A stretch of 64,000 bases of DNA. Origin: Dyella dinghuensis (lineage in GTDB: Bacteria; Pseudomonadota; Gammaproteobacteria; Xanthomonadales; Rhodanobacteraceae). Position 1 is the first letter of the stretch, and each line of letters starts with the position of its first letter. The position numbers and the translations under genes were made by a program. Location of the stretch: NCBI RefSeq assembly GCF_003977615.1, contig NZ_RYZR01000007.1, positions 496,001 to 560,000 of the forward strand, in the 5' to 3' direction. A model generated the notes under the pieces. That model ran no database searches. It saw only the letters and a list, made by a program, of their open reading frames with translations, and was not told the DNA's origin. This document shows, in pieces, positions 1,770 through 40,500 of this stretch.

Positions 1770-1873
1770 CCCTCCCCTGCAAGCAGGGGAGGGCTGGGGT
1801 GGGGTCATTCAATCTCGCCGTGAGGCAAGCTCGTGCCACCCCCTCCCAACCTCCCCCTGCAAGCAGGGGGAGG
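1770..1873. repeat. Inverted pair of CCCTCCCCTGC hairpins (variant repeat family)
   Basis: Two near-identical hairpins, CCCTCCCCTGC-AA-GCAGGGGAGGG at 1770-1793 and CCTCCCCCTGC-AA-GCAGGGGGAGG at 1850-1873, face each other across about 56 bp. The inner arms are GGCTGGGGTGGGG and its approximate complement. The architecture resembles the CCCTCTCCCC pairs elsewhere in the window, but the stem and loop differ, so this is a related but distinct subfamily. It follows fumA and could also end transcription or stabilise the mRNA. Confidence 0.8.
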
Positions 1874-4623: not shown

Positions 4624-4638
4624 CCCTCGATGCTTTTC

Positions 4639-4768
4639 CCCTCTCCCCTGCGGGGAGAGGGCAGGGTGAGGGGCCGCTCTTGCGATGACGGAAAATTTAA
4701 TCGGGTTTGAAGGGGCCTCATCGCAAGAACGGCCCCTCATCCCGGCCTTCTCCCCGGAGGGGAGAAGG
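4639..4768. repeat. Palindromic repeat pair upstream of the DUF559 gene (forward-reverse)
   Basis: The left hairpin is CCCTCTCCCC-TGC-GGGGAGAGGG (4639-4661) and the right hairpin is CCTTCTCCCC-GGA-GGGGAGAAGG (4746-4768). The 20-bp inner arms at 4669-4688 and 4718-4737 are inverted copies with one mismatch. This is the standard forward-reverse arrangement seen at the other loci, with hairpins outside and GC-rich arms inside. It begins 15 bp after the AK-DAPDC stop and ends just before the likely DUF559 start. Confidence 0.9.
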
Positions 4769-4795
4769 GGCAGAGCAAGGGAGCTGCGTCTCAGG

Positions 4796-5176
4796 ATGAA
4801 ACGCTTGCATGTAGATCGCGCGCGGGGACTGCGCAGAAGCATGACCGACGCCGAGCATTTGCTATGGCTTCATTTGCGCAACCGGCATTTCTCCGGATGG
4901 AAGTTCCGCAGGCAGCACCAAATCGATCGCTACATTGTCGACTTCGTCTGTCCGAATGTTTTCCTGATTGTGGAATTGGACGGCGGACAACATGCAGAAA
5001 TGATGACGGCGGATGCTGATCGCACATGTCGACTTGAGGGAATGGGTTATCGTGTGCTGCGCTTCTGGAACAATGATGTGTTGATGAATACGGAAGTGGT
5101 GCTTGAGGTGATTTTGGAGGCCTTGGCTAGAGCGGCCCCTCACCCCAACCCTCTCCCCAAAGGGGAGAGGGAGTAA
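4796..5176 (+). CDS. DUF559 (Vsr-like, PD-(D/E)XK fold) endonuclease-related protein, repeat-embedded
   Basis: The 126-residue product from ATG 4796 starts MKRLHVDRARGLRRSMTDAE, the usual beginning of DUF559 proteins. An in-frame ATG at 4685 would add 37 residues encoded by repeat DNA and is less likely. Putative catalytic residues of the very-short-patch-repair-like fold are Asp49 (YIVDFVCP) and Glu60/Asp62 in IVELDGGQH. The C-terminal tail ARAAPHPNPLPKGERE (111-126) is translated from a palindromic repeat. The gene is flanked on both sides by repeat pairs. DUF559 proteins are generally annotated as possible endonucleases; the substrate is unproven. A role in repeat mobility is only a hypothesis. 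Confidence 0.85.
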   Translation: MKRLHVDRARGLRRSMTDAEHLLWLHLRNRHFSGWKFRRQHQIDRYIVDFVCPNVFLIVELDGGQHAEMMTADADRTCRLEGMGYRVLRFWNNDVLMNTEVVLEVILEALARAAPHPNPLPKGERE

Positions 5177-5218
5177 AGCGTGGCGTGACTCTACCCCCTC
5201 TCCCCTTTGGGGAGAGGG
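5149..5218. repeat. Palindromic repeat pair downstream of the DUF559 gene (reverse-forward)
   Basis: Hairpins CCCTCTCCCC-AAA-GGGGAGAGGG (5149-5171) and CCCTCTCCCC-TTT-GGGGAGAGGG (5196-5218) lie back to back, with the GGGGTGAGGGGC-type arms pointing outwards (about 5133-5148 and 5219-5232). This is the reverse of the arrangement at the other loci. The left unit overlaps the last codons and stop of the DUF559 gene. The right unit ends 40 bp before murL. Confidence 0.9.
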
Positions 5219-5273
5219 CTGGGGTGAGGGGCCACACTCGCGACAAGTTAGAAACAGATCCGGAGTATTTTGA

Positions 5274-8073: not shown

Positions 8074-8233
8074 CGCATGCGCAAAAAAATCTTTAGCGCG
8101 TAATATGCGCCCAGCATCGACCTGATTTCTTGCATTCGATAACCCGGCTTGCGCTTCAGGGAACGTCCATGACGGGCGTCCATGTCTCGGGGAAAAGGAA
8201 TTTTTGGGTTACAGCTTGAATGGAGTCTTTGGT

Positions 8234-11200
8234 ATGCAGAAAGAAGCGGATCTGTACCGCGGATGTTCTGCTGTCCGCGATGGCCTTGGATGTCCGCGCC
8301 AAATGACATTTGGCGCCCGGATATCTGATTTCCCGAATGACGGCGTTCGTCAATGCTTCTTTCTGGAGCGAACGCCTGGCGATCAAAGTTTGACAGCTAC
8401 GTATCGCAATCGACGTAAGCGTGCCGATTCGACGCTCCGGCTTTTTAACCTCTCATGCATTTATGCAGCGATTGCGTTCGGCATTTTTGGGCATTCGGCG
8501 CACGCGCAAACCGTGAGTGCGGTAGCCAGTGGCCAATCGAATGTTGGTACCACCTGGAGTAATGGGGCCGTGCCGAGTGCTGGCAACAACTACGTCATCG
8601 GCAGTGGGTTTGTGGTGAATACCCCGCCGGTTGGTAATGCGACAACGCTCAATTACACATTCGGCGGCGATTCGTTGACTGTTCAGTCGGGTGGCACGCT
8701 GCAATTGCGAAGCAGCAACGCCAGTACGACATCACACGGAAATTACACAATTTCAGGGTTGACGCTGCAGAGCGGTAGTAGCCTGACACTTAGCACGGGG
8801 GTCGGTTCGATTATTTACACACTGCAGACAGGGCTGAATTTAGCGAGCTCAGGCAGTGTGACCCTAGTGAACAACAACAACGCTGCTGGCTACGTCGTCG
8901 GCCTGGTTCTGGCACCCAACTCCGTGCTTAGCGGCGGAGCCAACATCAATCTGATCTTTCAAGCGAATGGTCAGAATGGCGTGCTTGAAAAATACATGAC
9001 GGTCAGCAGCGCCAACAATCCCTACACGGGTAATTGGAACGTAACGGCCGCCAATTCAAACGCCAATCGTGAGGCAGGCCTCGTCGCAAATGCGGTCAAC
9101 GCGCTAGGCACTGGTAGCGTCAGTCTTACCGGTTCGACGCTGGTCAACCAAGTAGCCGACGGTCTTGATTCGATCAGTGGCGTGAATGTGGGTGCCAATT
9201 CGTTCGTAGAGGTTAATGCAACATGGAACAATCCAGCGGCCACGTTGGCGCTGAATGCTGCATCTTCCAAAGTGACGATCAGTGGTGCAAACACCGCGAT
9301 GAACATCGGCAACCTGACTGGCGTGACCGGTTCGTCCATCACTGGCAACGCGTCGGGTGAGTCGTTCAGCGTTAACACCACTACCGATTCGCTTTATGCA
9401 GGCACCATCGCGGGCAGCATTGCTTTTACCCAAAGCGGTCCCGCTACGTTAACCCTGACCGGCAACAACACCTATACGGGCGGAACTACGGTAACTGGCG
9501 GCCTGATTAATTTTTCTTCCTTGTCCAATTTTGGCACCGGCAGCATCACGCTCAACGGTGGTGGCTTGCAATGGGCAACCGGTAATACGGCTGATGTCTC
9601 CGCGCAGCTGAATCCTTTGGGCGCGAACGGTGCGACGTTCGATACGAATGGCAATGATGTGACGCTTGCCGGTGCGCTCTCTGGTGCAGGCGGTGTGTTG
9701 ATCAAGCAAGGTGCGGGTACGTTGACGTTGACCGGTGCTAACACGTACGACGGCGGTACGCAGATCAATGCGGGCACAGTGCAGATCGGCGCTGGCGGTA
9801 CATCGGGGAGCATCGAGGGCAATGTCGCCGACAATGGCATGCTCGCTTTCAATCTCTCTAACGCAGCGACGTTTAATGGCTCGATTTCCGGTACCGGCGG
9901 CGTGTCGCAGTTAGGTTCGGGCACCACGATTTTAACGGCCGACAATACTTACACGGGTGAGACGACGATCAGTGCGGGCACCTTGCAATTAGGCAATGGC
10001 GGGAACAGCGGTAGCGTCGCCGGCAACGTCGTGGACAACGGTACGCTGAGTATCAACCGGTCCGACACCGTGACGTTGCCTGGGGTGATTTCCGGTACCG
10101 GCAACCTGGCGCAGATAGGCACCGGCAGCACCACTCTCACCAGCGACAACACGTATACCGGTGGCACGTCTATCAAGGCTGGAACGTTGCAGTTGGGCAA
10201 CGGCAACACCGCGGGAAGCGTGCTTGGCGACATTGCCGACAACGCCATCTTGGCGTTCAATCGCTCCGACACCGTGGTGTATTCCAACATCATCAGTGGT
10301 AGCGGTGGTCTCAATCAGATGGGCCCTGGCACGCTGCAACTGGATGGCGCGCAAACGTACACAGGTCCAACCAATGTCTTGAGTGGCGTGCTCGCTGTCG
10401 ACGGCTCGATTCAGTCGGACACGACAACGGTCGCATCGGGCGCCACATTGTCGGGTTTCGGCGACCTCCACGGTAATGTGATCAACCAAGGCACGGTGTG
10501 GCCGGGCAACGCGATCGTTGGCGATACGAACTATGGCACGCTGACCATCCACGGCAGCTACGTCGGGCAGGGCGGTTTGCTCGAACTCAACACCTACCTC
10601 GGCGGGGACGGCTCGCCCTCGGATGTGCTCGCGATCGATGGCGGTGCAGTCACCGGTAACACCGGCGTGATCGTTCACAACACCGCGAAGGGGAGTGGTG
10701 AAACCAGCGGCGACGGCATTCTGGTGGTATCGGCGATCAATGGCGCCACCACGACGGCCGGTGCTTTCAACCTGGTTTCCGAAACACGCAGCGGTGCGCT
10801 CGACTACCGTCTGTTCCGCGGCAGCGTGGATGGAACAAGTCCAGACAGCTGGTACTTGCGCAACGAATTCACCGTGCCGCCCGAACCACCAGAGCCGCCG
10901 GTACCGCCGGAACCTCCGCAGCCACCCGATCCGATTCTTCCGCCCGATCCGCCGCCAGAGCCGCTACCGCCCGGTGTATACCCGATCATCGGGCCTGACG
11001 TGGCAACGTACGGTGTCGTGCAACCCGTGGCGCGCGAGTTGGGCATCGTCACGCTGGGTACGATGGATCAACGCATCGGTGATAGTGCATGGTTGGCATC
11101 GTCGACAGGCGATACCGATCATGGTCCGTCAGCGTGGGGACGTTTGTTCGCCACCAATATCGATAACAGCTATCGCGCTTTCGCCGCGCCGCAGGCGAAC

Positions 11201-11995
11201 GGCAATCTGTATGGGTTCCAGACGGGCGTGGATGTCTGGCAAGGCCAGCTGTTCCCGGAAAGCATAGATCGCTTCGGTGGCTACGTGTCTTATGGTGAGG
11301 CGGACATCAATGTGCGCGGCCTGGTGACGAATGCAGAAGCGACCAATTACGCCATGCAGCACACCGGTACATTGACGCTGCGTGCAACCTCGGCTGGTGC
11401 CTACTGGACGCACTACGGCATCAGCGGCTGGTATCTCGATGGTGTTGTGCAAGCCAGCACTTACAACGGTGCTGCCACCACGCAAGACGCTCGCCTGAAC
11501 ACGAACGGTGTAGGTTTCGTCGGTTCGCTGGAATTCGGTTATCCCATCGCGCTGCCGCAGCTGGGTGCAAGCTTTGCGTTGGAGCCCCAAGTTCAGGCCA
11601 TCTGGCAACACACCTCGTTCAGTCCCAACAACGATGGCGTCGGAGATGTTGCATTGGGTAGCACCCACGGCAGCACAGGGCGAATCGGCGTACGCGGCAA
11701 ATGGCAACTGACAAATTCGAACGGACAGTTGTGGGAGCCGTATGCGGCTGTGAACTTCTGGCGCGATTGGGGCGGCCGTAGCACGACGGTGTTTGGTGAT
11801 TCATCGAGTAGCGCGAGCACTGCACCGCTCCTGCCACAAGCAAACCGAGCAGAACTCGCTGGCGGCGTCACAGGCAAGCTTTTAGCACGGCTAAGCGTAT
11901 ACAGCTCGTTGGGTTACGAGCACGAGTTGGGGACTTCGACGAATGCCCGGCGCGAAGGCTTCAACGCCGATGCGGGGCTGCGTTACACGTGGTAG
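8234..11995 (+). CDS. Autotransporter 1, beta-helix passenger with PATR-type repeats
   Basis: A type Va secreted protein of 1253 residues. The start ATG 8234 is preceded by GGAG at 8222-8225 (8-nt spacing); a TTG at 8204 is the alternative. The N-terminus is unusual: about 65 mainly polar residues precede the hydrophobic signal core, with cleavage expected after HSAHA at 91. The passenger holds passenger-associated repeats (TLTLTGNNTYTGGTTV), with four anchors at exact 204-bp spacing (9743, 9947, 10151, 10355). A proline-rich linker (about 881-914) leads into a C-terminal barrel (about 965-1253) ending GLRYTW. It is a paralog of the next gene. Adhesin or biofilm function is plausible but not shown. 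Confidence 0.9.
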   Translation: MQKEADLYRGCSAVRDGLGCPRQMTFGARISDFPNDGVRQCFFLERTPGDQSLTATYRNRRKRADSTLRLFNLSCIYAAIAFGIFGHSAHAQTVSAVASGQSNVGTTWSNGAVPSAGNNYVIGSGFVVNTPPVGNATTLNYTFGGDSLTVQSGGTLQLRSSNASTTSHGNYTISGLTLQSGSSLTLSTGVGSIIYTLQTGLNLASSGSVTLVNNNNAAGYVVGLVLAPNSVLSGGANINLIFQANGQNGVLEKYMTVSSANNPYTGNWNVTAANSNANREAGLVANAVNALGTGSVSLTGSTLVNQVADGLDSISGVNVGANSFVEVNATWNNPAATLALNAASSKVTISGANTAMNIGNLTGVTGSSITGNASGESFSVNTTTDSLYAGTIAGSIAFTQSGPATLTLTGNNTYTGGTTVTGGLINFSSLSNFGTGSITLNGGGLQWATGNTADVSAQLNPLGANGATFDTNGNDVTLAGALSGAGGVLIKQGAGTLTLTGANTYDGGTQINAGTVQIGAGGTSGSIEGNVADNGMLAFNLSNAATFNGSISGTGGVSQLGSGTTILTADNTYTGETTISAGTLQLGNGGNSGSVAGNVVDNGTLSINRSDTVTLPGVISGTGNLAQIGTGSTTLTSDNTYTGGTSIKAGTLQLGNGNTAGSVLGDIADNAILAFNRSDTVVYSNIISGSGGLNQMGPGTLQLDGAQTYTGPTNVLSGVLAVDGSIQSDTTTVASGATLSGFGDLHGNVINQGTVWPGNAIVGDTNYGTLTIHGSYVGQGGLLELNTYLGGDGSPSDVLAIDGGAVTGNTGVIVHNTAKGSGETSGDGILVVSAINGATTTAGAFNLVSETRSGALDYRLFRGSVDGTSPDSWYLRNEFTVPPEPPEPPVPPEPPQPPDPILPPDPPPEPLPPGVYPIIGPDVATYGVVQPVARELGIVTLGTMDQRIGDSAWLASSTGDTDHGPSAWGRLFATNIDNSYRAFAAPQANGNLYGFQTGVDVWQGQLFPESIDRFGGYVSYGEADINVRGLVTNAEATNYAMQHTGTLTLRATSAGAYWTHYGISGWYLDGVVQASTYNGAATTQDARLNTNGVGFVGSLEFGYPIALPQLGASFALEPQVQAIWQHTSFSPNNDGVGDVALGSTHGSTGRIGVRGKWQLTNSNGQLWEPYAAVNFWRDWGGRSTTVFGDSSSSASTAPLLPQANRAELAGGVTGKLLARLSVYSSLGYEHELGTSTNARREGFNADAGLRYTW
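9743..10356 (+). repeat. Three tandem 204-bp coding repeats in autotransporter 1
   Basis: The same anchor motif occurs at 9743, 9947, 10151 and 10355, spaced exactly 204 bp. These units are homologous to the seven in autotransporter 2. An earlier related motif at 9470 is offset by 273 bp, so it is outside the regular array. Confidence 0.88.
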
Positions 11996-22561: not shown

Positions 22562-23068
22562 CTGTCACCCCTATAAGGCCGTACGGAAACGCTCGGCCGG
22601 AACGCACTGAAGATCGGATTTAAATCGATCTAAATCGTGTGTGTCAAACCGCAGCGCAGCAACGCCGTCGCAGGGCGCTAACGCTGTATGGTCTATTGAT
22701 CTTTCCATAATTTTTGGCGCCGGCTTCATCCCTAGCGAAGATGGTCCGATGCCGCCGCAGATACTCCCTCTCCCCTTCGGGGAGAGGGTTGGGGTGAGGG
22801 GGCGCCGCTTGCACAGAGCACCATCTTTGCAAACAGATTCCGCGACGGATTTCCCTGCAACATGATGCCTTTGCGCAAGAATTGCCCCTCACCCCAGCCC
22901 TCTCCCCGGAGGGGAGAGGGGGCAAGCTCGCTTGTCGCATCTTATGGAAAGCTAAGTAGCATGACCGGAAGCACCCGGTTCAACATGTCGATTTCGGATC
23001 GACTCGTTCGACGCTGTTACAAAGGCAGCCGGCCGGGTTCGCGGCCGTAACAACTTTCAGGAGAAATC
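22562..23068. other. 507-bp gap between the GH92 gene and the MFS exporter
   Basis: This is the divergent promoter region for the two flanking genes. Its middle third is filled by a palindromic repeat pair (22766-22920). The rest shows no convincing ORF, RNA gene or divergent regulator gene. A ribosome-binding AGGAG lies just before 23069. Confidence 0.6.
22766..22920. repeat. Palindromic repeat pair (forward-reverse)
   Basis: Hairpins CCCTCTCCCC-TTC-GGGGAGAGGG (22766-22788) and CCCTCTCCCC-GGA-GGGGAGAGGG (22898-22920) enclose about 110 bp. The inner arms are GTTGGGGTGAGGGGGCG and its complement. Size and orientation are almost the same as those of the copy inside hrpA (155 versus 153 bp). 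Confidence 0.9.
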
Positions 23069-30893: not shown

Positions 30894-31004
30894 GCCTCAG
30901 GGTTCCATCCTTGTCACAGCATCGCAAGTGGCAGCTTAGCCAGTTGCAGATGGATCGCGCATTAAGCCAATTCTTATTTAATAGCGCGCCTTTTGCCCTC
31001 GCTT

Positions 31005-31113
31005 CCTCTCCCCTTCGGGGAGAGGATTGAGGTGAGGGGCGGCTCTTGTGGTGAAGCTGACCTCCTCGCGAGAGTGGCCCCTCACTCCGGCCCTCTCCCC
31101 AGAGGGGAGAGGG
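31005..31113. repeat. Palindromic repeat pair (forward-reverse)
   Basis: Hairpins CCTCTCCCC-TTC-GGGGAGAGG (31005-31025) and CCCTCTCCCC-AGA-GGGGAGAGGG (31091-31113) enclose inner arms GAGGTGAGGGGCGGCTCT and the approximate complement AGAGTGGCCCCTCACTC. The pair fills most of the 244-bp gap upstream of tamA and downstream of the beta-glucan synthase. Confidence 0.9.
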
Positions 31114-37576: not shown

Positions 37577-40500
37577 ATGAGCGATACGACACCCAACACC
37601 CCCTCCGTCTCTCCGGAAGCCCGCCTGCGCTCGTTGCGCAAATTGCTGGATTCGGTCTCCAGCCGCGATTTCGGACGGCTGCTGGGCCGCTGGCGCGGCT
37701 TGTCGCGCCGACCGGACGAGAAAAAGCTGCAGGCGCTTGCCGCCGACATCGCCGCTTCGGCTGCGCGGAGGCAGCTGCGTGCGCAAAACAAACCGCCGAT
37801 TCGCCTGGACGAGTCGTTGCCCATCACTGCGCGCGCGGATGAGATCGTCAAACTGATCCGCGAGCACCAGGTCGTGGTGATTGCCGGCGAGACCGGTTCG
37901 GGCAAGACCACGCAGCTGCCCAAGTTGTGCCTTGCCGCCGGCCGCGGCGAAGCGGGCATGATCGGTTGCACGCAGCCGCGTCGCCTGGCGGCGCGCTCGG
38001 TGGCGCGTCGCGTCGCGGAAGAACTGGGTACGCAGCTGGGCGACAAGGTCGGTTTTCAGGTGCGCTTTACCGATCAGGTTTCCGAGCAAAGCCTGATCAA
38101 ATTCATGACCGACGGCATTCTGTTGGCGGAGACGCAAGGCGACCCGTGGTTGTCGGCCTACGACACGATCATCATCGACGAAGCGCACGAGCGCAGTCTC
38201 AACATCGATTTTCTGCTCGGTTATCTCAAGCGTCTGGCGGTAAAGCGACCGGAGCTGAAGATTATCGTCACCTCCGCCACGATCGATACCGCGCGTTTCG
38301 CGGAACATTTTGGCGGCGCGCCAGTGGTGTCCGTCGAAGGCCGTGCGTATCCGGTGGAGGTGCGGTGGCGTTCCACCGATGAGGTCGCTGCGCGTCGCAA
38401 TCAGCGAGCCTCGGACATGCAGCAAGGGAGCGCCGAGCACATTGCCGCGGTGCTCGATGAAATTACGCACGACGATCCGCGCGGCGATGTACTGATCTTC
38501 ATGCCTGGTGAGCGCGAAATCCGCGATACGCATCTGATGTTGTCGCGCCGTCAGTATCGGGAGACGGAAATCCTGCCGCTGTATGCGCGGCTATCGGCGA
38601 CCGATCAGGATCGCGTTTTCAAGCCGGGGCCGAAGCGGCACATTGTGCTGGCCACGAATGTGGCGGAGACGTCACTCACGGTGCCGCGCATTCGCTACGT
38701 GATCGATACCGGTACGGCACGCGTGAAGCGTTACAGCCAGCGCAGTCAGCTCGAACGTCTGCACGTCGAGCCGATATCGCAAGCCGCAGCCGATCAGCGC
38801 AAAGGCCGATGCGGGCGAGTAGGCCCAGGCATCTGCTATCGCCTGTACGACGAAGCCGATTATGCAGCGCGGCCGGCATACACCGACCCGGAGTTGCTCC
38901 GCTCCTCGCTCGCGAACGTCATCCTGCGCATGCTCTCGCTGCAGTTGGGCGAAGTGGATGAGTTTCCGTTCTTGGAATCGCCTGATACACGCGTCGTGGC
39001 GGATGGCTATCGCCGACTGGCGGAAATCGGCGCCATCGACGAGAAACGGCAGCTCAGCGTTATCGGCCGCACGCTGGCGCGTTTGCCGATCGACGTGCAG
39101 CTCGCGCGCATGCTGGTGGAAGCCAACACGCTTGGAAGCTTGCGCGAATTGCTGACCGTCGTGGCCTTCCTGAGCATTCAGGACCCACGTGAGCGTCCTG
39201 CCGATGCGCGGCAGCAGGCAGATGCGGCGCACGCCGTGTTTGCCGATCCGAAATCCGACATCGTTGGCGTGTTGAACCTCTGGCGCGACTACGACAGCGC
39301 GCATGAGGAGCTGACGCAATCGAAGTTGCGTGACTGGTGCTCACGTCACTTCCTGAGTTTCCTGCGCATGCGCGAGTGGCGTGAGCTGCATCGACAATTG
39401 TTGTTGGTGACGCAGGAGCTTGGCTGGCGTTTCACTTCCACCCTCGCCGAAAATACCCCCTCTCCCCCTCGGGGAGAGGGTCGGGGTGAGGGGGCAGTCT
39501 CGCGAGGCGTCTCAGGTGCTCAAGCAAAAGAATCAATTAAGAGCCGCGCTGATAAACATTCGCGCAAGTCCGAACCCCTCACCCCAACCCTCTCCCCGGA
39601 GGGGAGAGGGGGCGATGGCGAAGCTGAGCGTTTGTACGAAGCAGTGCACCGCAGCCTGCTCGCTGGGTTGCCCACACAGGTCGGACACAAAGACGAAAAG
39701 GGCATTTACCGTGGCACGCGCGAACGCCGCTTCCAGGTCTTTCTCGGCTCAGCGTTAGCCAAGACGCCACCCAACTGGGTGTTTGCCGCGCAGATTCTGG
39801 ATATCGGCGGACGCGTGTGGGGCATGATGTGTGCACGCATCGAACCGCTATGGATCGAGCAGCAAGCCGCGCATCTGTTGCGTGGGACGTGCCGAGATGC
39901 GCATTGGTCGCGCAAACGCGGCACCGTCGTGGCGTATGAACAAATCAGCCTCTTCGGCCTGACATTGGTCGAGCGTCGGCCCGTGACGTTCCAGCAACAG
40001 GATCCGGCGCTGGCTCACGACATCTTCCTGCGTGAAGCCCTGGCACGCTGCGATATCGACACGCGCGCTGATTTCGTCCGCGTCAACCAGCGCGTGCTGG
40101 AGGATGCGCAAGGTATCGAAGCGCGGCAACGTCGCGAAGGTCTGATTCGCCACGAAGACGATCTGGTCGATTTCTTCCGTGGAAAATTGCCGCAAGACAT
40201 CGCCAGTTCGCGCGCGCTGGACGCGTGGTATCGCAATGCGCGCCCTGCCGAGCAGGCCGCTTTGCGCTGGTCGATCGACGATGTGATGGTCGGCGGTTCG
40301 GGTCTGGACCCTAAAGCCTTTCCTGCCTCGCTGGATGTTCCGCCGCAACGCTATCGGCTGGAATACCGGTTTGTTCCTGGTGATGATGCCGATGGCGTCA
40401 CGCTTCATCTGCCGCTGGCCATGCTCAATGCATTGCCCGCTGCACGCTGCGAGTGGTTGGTGCCGGGTTTGCTGGGCGAGAAAGTCGCCGAATTGATTCG

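Follow-up and report, generated by a model that had tools for sequence, protein, structure and literature searches.

Why is a small nuclease gene enclosed by short palindromic repeats, one of which supplies the end of its reading frame? This arrangement is found in the window, by which we mean the whole 64,000-nucleotide stretch of Dyella dinghuensis DNA that was analysed, between two genes that we take to be lysA and murL. The locus contains the following features:

4639..4673, + strand: unit 1, forward; hairpin at 4639-4661 followed by a G-rich mirror tail; left inverted end of the gene-bearing element
4733..4768, - strand: unit 2, reverse; C-rich tail, then hairpin at 4746-4768
4796..5176, + strand: DUF559 (PF04480) nuclease gene, 126 residues; identified by profile match, with the start taken from ATGAA(A/G)CG in relatives
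5136..5171, - strand: unit 3, reverse; C-rich tail, then hairpin at 5149-5171; right inverted end, overlapping the 3' end of the gene
5196..5231, + strand: unit 4, forward; hairpin at 5196-5218 followed by a tail

The order forward-reverse, gene, reverse-forward described in the first-pass annotation is thus present. Units 1 and 2 together resemble a gene-less pair, and the segment that holds them (4636-4772) has a folding z of -10.3 as single-stranded DNA. The annotation was also right that the C-terminal codons are repeat sequence: the last ~16 codons of the gene lie within the right-hand repeat, through which the reading frame runs to the stop codon at 5174-5176. The odd C-terminal end of the window protein is explained as translated repeat, as are the C-terminal ends in relatives that have the right-hand hairpin within a few bases of the domain end, a spacing seen in many of the tabulated family and phylum loci. 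An upstream start at ATG 4685, suggested earlier, is unlikely because ATGAA(A/G)CG is kept at the start in relatives; it is found (at 4796 in the window) in all 16 lysA-murL loci for which the gene start is shown, the window locus being one of the 16.

The earlier assignment of the embedded gene to DUF559 is confirmed by its PF04480 match (E 1.6e-40; 137.8 bits against a curated cut-off of 20.6). Candidate catalytic residues are E20, D49, E60, D62 and H66. Three of these, Asp49, Glu60 and Asp62, had been proposed as active-site residues from the window alone, correctly so: D49 and E60 are each conserved in 119 of 120 family proteins, D62 in 120 of 120, and the residues are intact in 29 of 29 others from the phylum, so that the family consensus is not that of a dead enzyme. 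A fold search with the structure model (mean pLDDT 81) ranks 3hrl, the structure of NGO0050, first (a separate comparison also matches it to the window protein, at E 7.7e-27), followed by the catalytic domain of the homing endonuclease I-Bth0305I (3r3p; TM-score 0.63 by query length) and, more weakly, Vsr (1vsr, E only 0.019). Judged by the modelled core fold and the acidic active site, the window protein is, in agreement with the annotation, a Vsr-like PD-(D/E)XK nuclease and not a Y1 HUH transposase; no RAYT family is among the matches. The YcjD/DUF559 family has been predicted to belong to the PD-(D/E)XK nucleases and to be related to Vsr (PMC1189080). A DUF559 protein of Caulobacter, VsrA, is reported to drive the SOS response in cells without cytosine methyltransferase and has been proposed to be a mismatch-repair enzyme (PMC12907096); at least one family member therefore acts on DNA in vivo. 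YcjD, VsrA and NGO0050 are of the same protein family as the window protein but, in the available text of these two papers, are mentioned without a repeat partner. We rejected a role as a defence gene, the PADLOC matches being weak and to parts of long profiles.

The repeat unit consists of a palindrome and, after it, a purine tail mirroring the purine arm, a relation that lay beyond the observations of the first-pass annotation. Scored over 322 units, the tail mirrors its own arm with 0.852, compared with 0.776 for tails of other loci (p 1.9e-25) and 0.645 for shuffled tails; one pyrimidine-armed hairpin was used per side, and the named loci in this test are 53 of 80, chosen after the hairpin survey (mainly loci with hairpins, outside the window's relatives). 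We rejected a direct repeat as the source of the tail, as the mirror fits better in 136 of the 322 units and worse in 5; among the 96 units with asymmetric arms it is better in 58 and worse in 3. Because the tail mirrors the hairpin arm, the units can be assigned to the known triplex motifs TM/PIT: by its layout of a hairpin plus a mirror third strand, the Dyella repeat is an intrastrand-triplex motif. A search for an RNA family returned Rfam matches to microRNA models only, all under the gathering scores, and this candidate was dropped.

TM/PIT motifs are known from E. coli, with 23 copies of TM in K-12, and from more than 260 genomes (Holder 2015, PMC4666352; Hoyne and Maher cited there). 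They share with the Dyella repeat the unit itself (hairpin CCCTCTCCC..GGGAGAGGG plus GGGTGAGGG tail), the intergenic location, the occurrence of some copies as inverted pairs and deletions that leave a hairpin (PMC4666352). According to the same paper, stable triplexes form from E. coli single strands, with none reported in duplex DNA or in vivo, and instability is higher at TM loci. Its authors saw no link of the motif to transposons, phages or plasmids, and its main text does not contain the word "endonuclease". What differs here is the DUF559 partner, which is the addition of the present analysis. In an alignment of 101 subtype-A units, in which hairpin and tail are fixed by the search pattern and only the bases outside are informative, strong conservation outside the hairpin is limited to a C two bases upstream of it (91 of 101 units), with T or C next; the counts for positions -4 to -1 are T 61, G 45, C 91 and T 59. 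Beyond the tail of these units, conservation is weak for ~15 bases and then absent.

Allowing up to 3 mismatches, we find the core CCCTCTCCCCNNNGGGGAGAGGG 10 times in the window (100 shuffles: mean 0.00, largest 0). As had been noted at first reading, the same hairpin pairs are scattered over the window without the gene. All four are arranged forward-reverse with their tails inward:

1770..1873: gene-less pair (1770/1850), subtype B, which is that of the L001 paralogue; forward-reverse
22766..22920: gene-less pair (22766/22898), subtype A, forward-reverse; no such unit at the matching site in the three relatives compared, which have diverged flanks
31004..31113: gene-less pair (31004/31091), subtype A, forward-reverse; a single hybrid hairpin in the relative G466
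39458..39610: gene-less pair (39458/39588), subtype A, forward-reverse; intact pair at the matching site in 4 of 9 relatives compared

At the site of the 31004..31113 pair, genomes G463 and G066 (loci L308 and L307) have another inverted repeat, GCTGGGAT..ATCCCAGC, and not a triplex pair. Away from DUF559, adjacent oriented units in the window and 60 ten-kb loci are forward-reverse in 13 cases, reverse-reverse in 5, reverse-forward in 3 and forward-forward in 2; 19 of 59 units are unpaired. A broader three-subtype pattern matches 133 sites in the 4.2 Mb Dyella genome, and the reversed control pattern matches none. This genome has three DUF559 genes, all among such units and each with another subtype:

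Subtype A, stem CCCTCTCCCC: DUF559 gene of the window
Subtype B, CCCTCCCCTGC: DUF559 gene of L001
Subtype C, CCCCTCTCCC: DUF559 gene of L003

The enclosing units face inward at L003 and in the window; the unit preceding the L001 gene is degenerate and was judged by eye.

The enrichment of repeats beside DUF559 genes in relatives, which the annotation had proposed as a check, was borne out. The density of perfect hairpins (stem of at least 10; repeat sequence unused) within 100 bp of DUF559 is 6.77 per kb, compared with 0.19 per kb at a distance of 3-5 kb, a ratio of ~35, in 57 of 60 loci, the other three having been dropped for partial domains. A hairpin lies within 250 bp of the gene on at least one side in 49 of the 57 loci and on both sides in 29. 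For other genes of the same loci, the density within 100 bp is 0.67 per kb, with a hairpin on one side in 26 of 193 and on both sides in 0 of 193. In the family, a classified hairpin stands beside 107 of 125 DUF559 genes, with none classified for the remaining 18, and the gene is flanked by a forward unit on the left and a reverse unit on the right in 40 of 89 loci, against 4 of 89 with the opposite order. The corresponding numbers for the phylum are 5 and 2 of 29 loci, and only for the family can the orientation rule be called firm.

In named genomes, the best 80 of at least 573 loci, a sample biased to window-like proteins, include Desulfobacterales, Nitrospirae, Planctomycetota and Chloroflexi. 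An adjacent hairpin is present in 70 of these 80 loci, on both sides in 52, and the densities are 6.42 and 0.16 per kb. Compared as reverse complements, the right flank of the same locus fits the left flank better than do 8 others in 43 of 74 named-genome loci (expected, 8.2). Nine further named loci include Azospirillum and one Deinococcus with a hairpin on one side, and Sphingomonas, Sinorhizobium and another Deinococcus with hairpins on both. The Neisseria gonorrhoeae locus has a hairpin only from 166 bases downstream, Picosynechococcus has one G-rich hairpin 110 bases downstream, and the perfect-hairpin scan found none in Pseudanabaena. Beyond Pseudomonadota the loci are few and the picture is mixed, with no hairpin in Pseudanabaena and the order reversed in Deinococcus.

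Chance hairpins are rejected by the density contrast, the other-gene control and the shuffles. The repeats might still be terminators or spacers that happen to border a small gene, with repeats and gene alike frequent in some GC-rich lineages. Intrinsic terminators also form hairpins, and shared ancestry inflates correlations between genomes when, as in our counts, no tree correction is made. Against such a coincidence stand the other genes of the same loci, none of which is flanked on both sides, and the hairpin density of 0.67 per kb beside them against 6.77 per kb beside DUF559. Plain terminators are further disfavoured by the two-sided flanks, the orientation and the subtype match. The genome-level data described next add that RAYT presence is uncorrelated with these repeats, and that the correlation with DUF559 holds within genera and for the cognate subtype. 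We regard the absence of any functional link as extremely improbable.

Across 117 genomes of the family, repeat number tracks standalone DUF559 (at least 55 bits) with a rho of 0.71, as the annotation had suggested it might; family and phylum repeat counts were made with exact patterns and are not corrected for the species tree. Far from being equally abundant without the gene, repeats have a median of 57 in the 73 genomes with DUF559 and of 1 in the 44 without, and at least 10 repeats are found in 63 of 73 and 9 of 44, respectively. Among 349 genomes of the phylum, at least 10 repeats are present in 64 of 88 with a strong DUF559 match (best E <1e-20) and in 14 of 261 without, the latter group including 34 genomes with weaker matches. 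Within genera that have both kinds of genome, the median is higher with DUF559 in 12 of 13 (p 7e-4). RAYT shows no correlation with these repeats in the same 117 family genomes (rho 0.07) and was rejected as their true driver.

There are exceptions in both directions. DUF559 occurs with fewer than 10 repeats in 10 of 73 family and 24 of 88 phylum genomes. G127 has the gene and 0 GC-rich repeats; an AT-rich hairpin beside its gene is present in 16 copies in its 2.0 Mb, 8 of them clustered beside the gene, and in 0 copies in G000, G305 and G420. G226, from the same family as G127, has 14 copies of this AT-rich triplex hairpin and no DUF559 match, which can be read either as recent loss of the gene or as the work of another partner. 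The phylum sample contains up to 10 DUF559 matches per genome. Phage or plasmid cargo was rejected: DUF559 matches 3 of 50,697 phage records and 44 of 72,556 plasmid records, and among the 25 plasmid records listed there are some with the size of a chromosome.

The pairing of nuclease clades with repeat subtypes likewise went beyond the first-pass annotation. Left and right hairpins have the same subtype in 64 of 69 two-sided family loci (10,000 shuffles: mean 17, maximum 29). On a tree of 120 proteins, 106 of them labelled with one of 8 subtypes, we count 11 subtype changes against 49 genus changes; 8 states require a minimum of 7, and the count of 11 stands without a shuffled control. The labels come from regular expressions and are in part mistaken: the CCTTCTCCCC form of A, for one, is labelled H. 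Such errors probably add to the 11 changes. Linkage alone could explain the agreement of flank subtype with the protein tree. It cannot explain the genome-wide counts of dispersed copies, the only counts to escape linkage, since these also follow the cognate clade. The median number of A repeats is 39 in genomes with an A-clade gene and 0 in other DUF559 genomes; for B repeats and B-clade genes the medians are 22 and 0. The AUC is 0.92 and 0.94 for the cognate combinations (A and B clades) and 0.68 and 0.69 for the crossed ones. At least 5 A repeats are nevertheless found in 8 of 38 DUF559 genomes without an A-clade gene, and at least 5 B repeats in 7 of 56 without a B-clade gene. Paralogue-specific repeats are also a property of RAYT systems.

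These data are best read as a partnership of DUF559 and TM that resembles REP/RAYT but has a Vsr-fold nuclease where RAYT systems have an HUH transposase. We put the probability that gene and hairpin-tail repeats are two halves of one intragenomic system, working as follows, at roughly 0.6. Two inward-facing units would be the ends of an element, autonomous with DUF559 inside and, without it, a miniature non-autonomous pair. During replication or repair, while the DNA is in single-stranded form, the nuclease would recognise the folded unit cognate to it and cut near the CT that usually lies just outside the hairpin. The cut would lead to the pair being copied or inserted elsewhere, or to the conversion of older copies. 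Divergence of paralogues would have fitted each of them to a repeat subtype of its own. Of this picture, the comparisons establish the anatomy, the association of gene and repeats, their orientation, the pairing of subtypes, the link of repeat number to the cognate clade and the repeated losses; recognition, the place of the cut, the single-stranded substrate and dispersal are inferred.

The history of the element can be followed at matching sites. The murL gene is present in 58 of 59 genomes, and 30 lysA-murL loci were compared. The element is present in 14 of these, from 7 genera; G005 has a broken gene, G009, G023 and G046 have decayed remains, G051, G002 and G028 have one hairpin, and in 9 of the 30 loci there is no visible trace of the element. 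At the gene-less site of G466, the single hairpin has a left arm like that of the forward unit and a right arm like that of the reverse unit. Which pair occupies the fum-lysA slot varies with the species: its subtype is A, B or C, or the pair is mixed, as with the B/A pair in G054; in G106 this intergenic region (L115) contains six forward units in tandem. The annotation had called for empty sites in relatives. We saw no clean one; lysA-murL and fum-lysA show loss, decay and subtype replacement. Neither target duplication nor a clean insertion junction was seen at the sites compared, which differ between species. What the compared sites record is loss by pair collapse, recurrently leaving one hairpin, together with replacement; a datable insertion was not among the events seen there.

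The mixed and replaced pairs at fum-lysA are what gene conversion would give, and conversion is central to a different explanation, in which the gene is a homing-type parasite: the nuclease would cut gene-less pairs, repair would copy the gene-bearing element in, and the repeats would be its target and not its derivative. The second rank of the I-Bth0305I catalytic domain in the fold search speaks for this. Unlike a homing gene in an intron or intein, however, the Dyella gene is intergenic between triplex hairpins. It lies within a repeat pair, and genomes without the gene are mostly without repeats, which implies that the repeats do not thrive alone. DUF559 also stays at 1-5 strong matches per family genome amid tens to hundreds of repeats, and one conserved site, lysA-murL, is occupied in 7 genera among the 30 loci. 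We therefore consider a homing parasite unlikely.

The Vsr-like fold and active site, and the SOS effect and proposed mismatch-repair role of Caulobacter VsrA (PMC12907096), are also compatible with a caretaker. The repeats would then arise by other means, and triplex-rich genomes would keep a nuclease that processes stalled or mismatched structures, in the manner of Vsr repair. This leaves unexplained why the gene sits inside repeats of its own subtype with a preferred orientation and spacing, and why gene-less genomes mostly lack repeats; we think it quite unlikely.

How far the preferred reading, a nuclease that disperses or maintains its own repeats, resembles known systems can be stated in some detail. 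The parallel to REP/RAYT drawn in the annotation stands for behaviour and fails for membership, because there is no HUH protein. RAYT genes are small, vertically kept and located beside short palindromes, with dispersed intergenic inverted pairs, a conserved motif beside the palindrome, more repeats where the gene is present, and absence from plasmids (PMC8266576, PMC8049555). DUF559 is likewise a small, vertically kept gene beside palindromes; its repeats form dispersed intergenic inverted pairs with a motif beside the palindrome, their number depends on the gene, and DUF559 is rare on plasmids. The differences lie in the enzyme, a Vsr-fold PD-(D/E)XK nuclease in place of an HUH tyrosine transposase, and in the motif, a purine mirror tail in place of the conserved tetranucleotide, mostly GTAG, that precedes the REP palindrome; the 101 subtype-A units have no GTAG-type tetranucleotide at this position. 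Like MITEs, the gene-less copies are short non-autonomous inverted pairs resembling the gene-bearing element minus its gene, but there is no transposase of a known family and no target duplication at the compared sites. A search of the accessible open-licence literature found no report of a link between DUF559 and repeats. By enzyme class and DNA fold the system is not RAYT, yet it is RAYT-like in behaviour, with a mechanism that we infer.

Laboratory E. coli is possibly among the bacteria with this partnership. K-12 has an annotated DUF559 gene, ycjD (b1289), and TM number 9 (1,351,204-1,351,239; position from Holder's table, PMC4666352) lies 168 bases from its 3' end. As in the window, the 3' end of the gene runs into a decayed CCCTCTCCC unit; a different hairpin lies upstream, and TM-like sequence is present on one side only. 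The E. coli locus in the nine-locus hairpin scan shows another hairpin, its imperfect TM escaping a scan for perfect ones. At least 80% of the ycjD region is present in 3,362 of 5,426 E. coli genomes. In 6 of 6 inspected loci without ycjD (fabI-sapF region, L324-L329) an efflux operon stands beside fabI (see also PMC12817139).

Counts of triplex repeats exist for hundreds of bacterial genomes, and the repeats have been linked to genome instability, but without an agent that makes or moves them. In many bacteria DUF559 probably fills this gap, as the partner by which the repeats are spread or maintained. The odds seem to us about even for the wider proposition that DUF559 proteins are the dispersal enzymes of triplex repeats across Pseudomonadota and beyond, a convergent REP-like class in which a Vsr-fold nuclease reads a three-stranded fold, with triplex sequences specific to each clade and a testable relic in K-12 (ycjD and the 23 TM). 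With a cognate nuclease named, the question becomes open to experiment in laboratory E. coli K-12. A function can be suggested for a domain that had none assigned, and there are signs that the REP/RAYT life style was arrived at a second time, independently.

Three minor observations may be added. The hairpin loop of several units, at L294, L158, L160 and L077 (repeat sites of G051, G054, G022 and G038, respectively), contains an additional palindrome, GGCCATGGATGGCC..GAGGAGCGAGGA or a variant of it, which may be another small element inserted within the first. At G029:C3:275814-277118 (L132), three tandem DUF559 genes that are close on the protein tree are accompanied by subtype E units, probably the product of recent local amplification. 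Finally, positions 8204-11995 of the window contain a long open reading frame with repeated T-G-A-N-like motifs, which looks autotransporter-like by eye.
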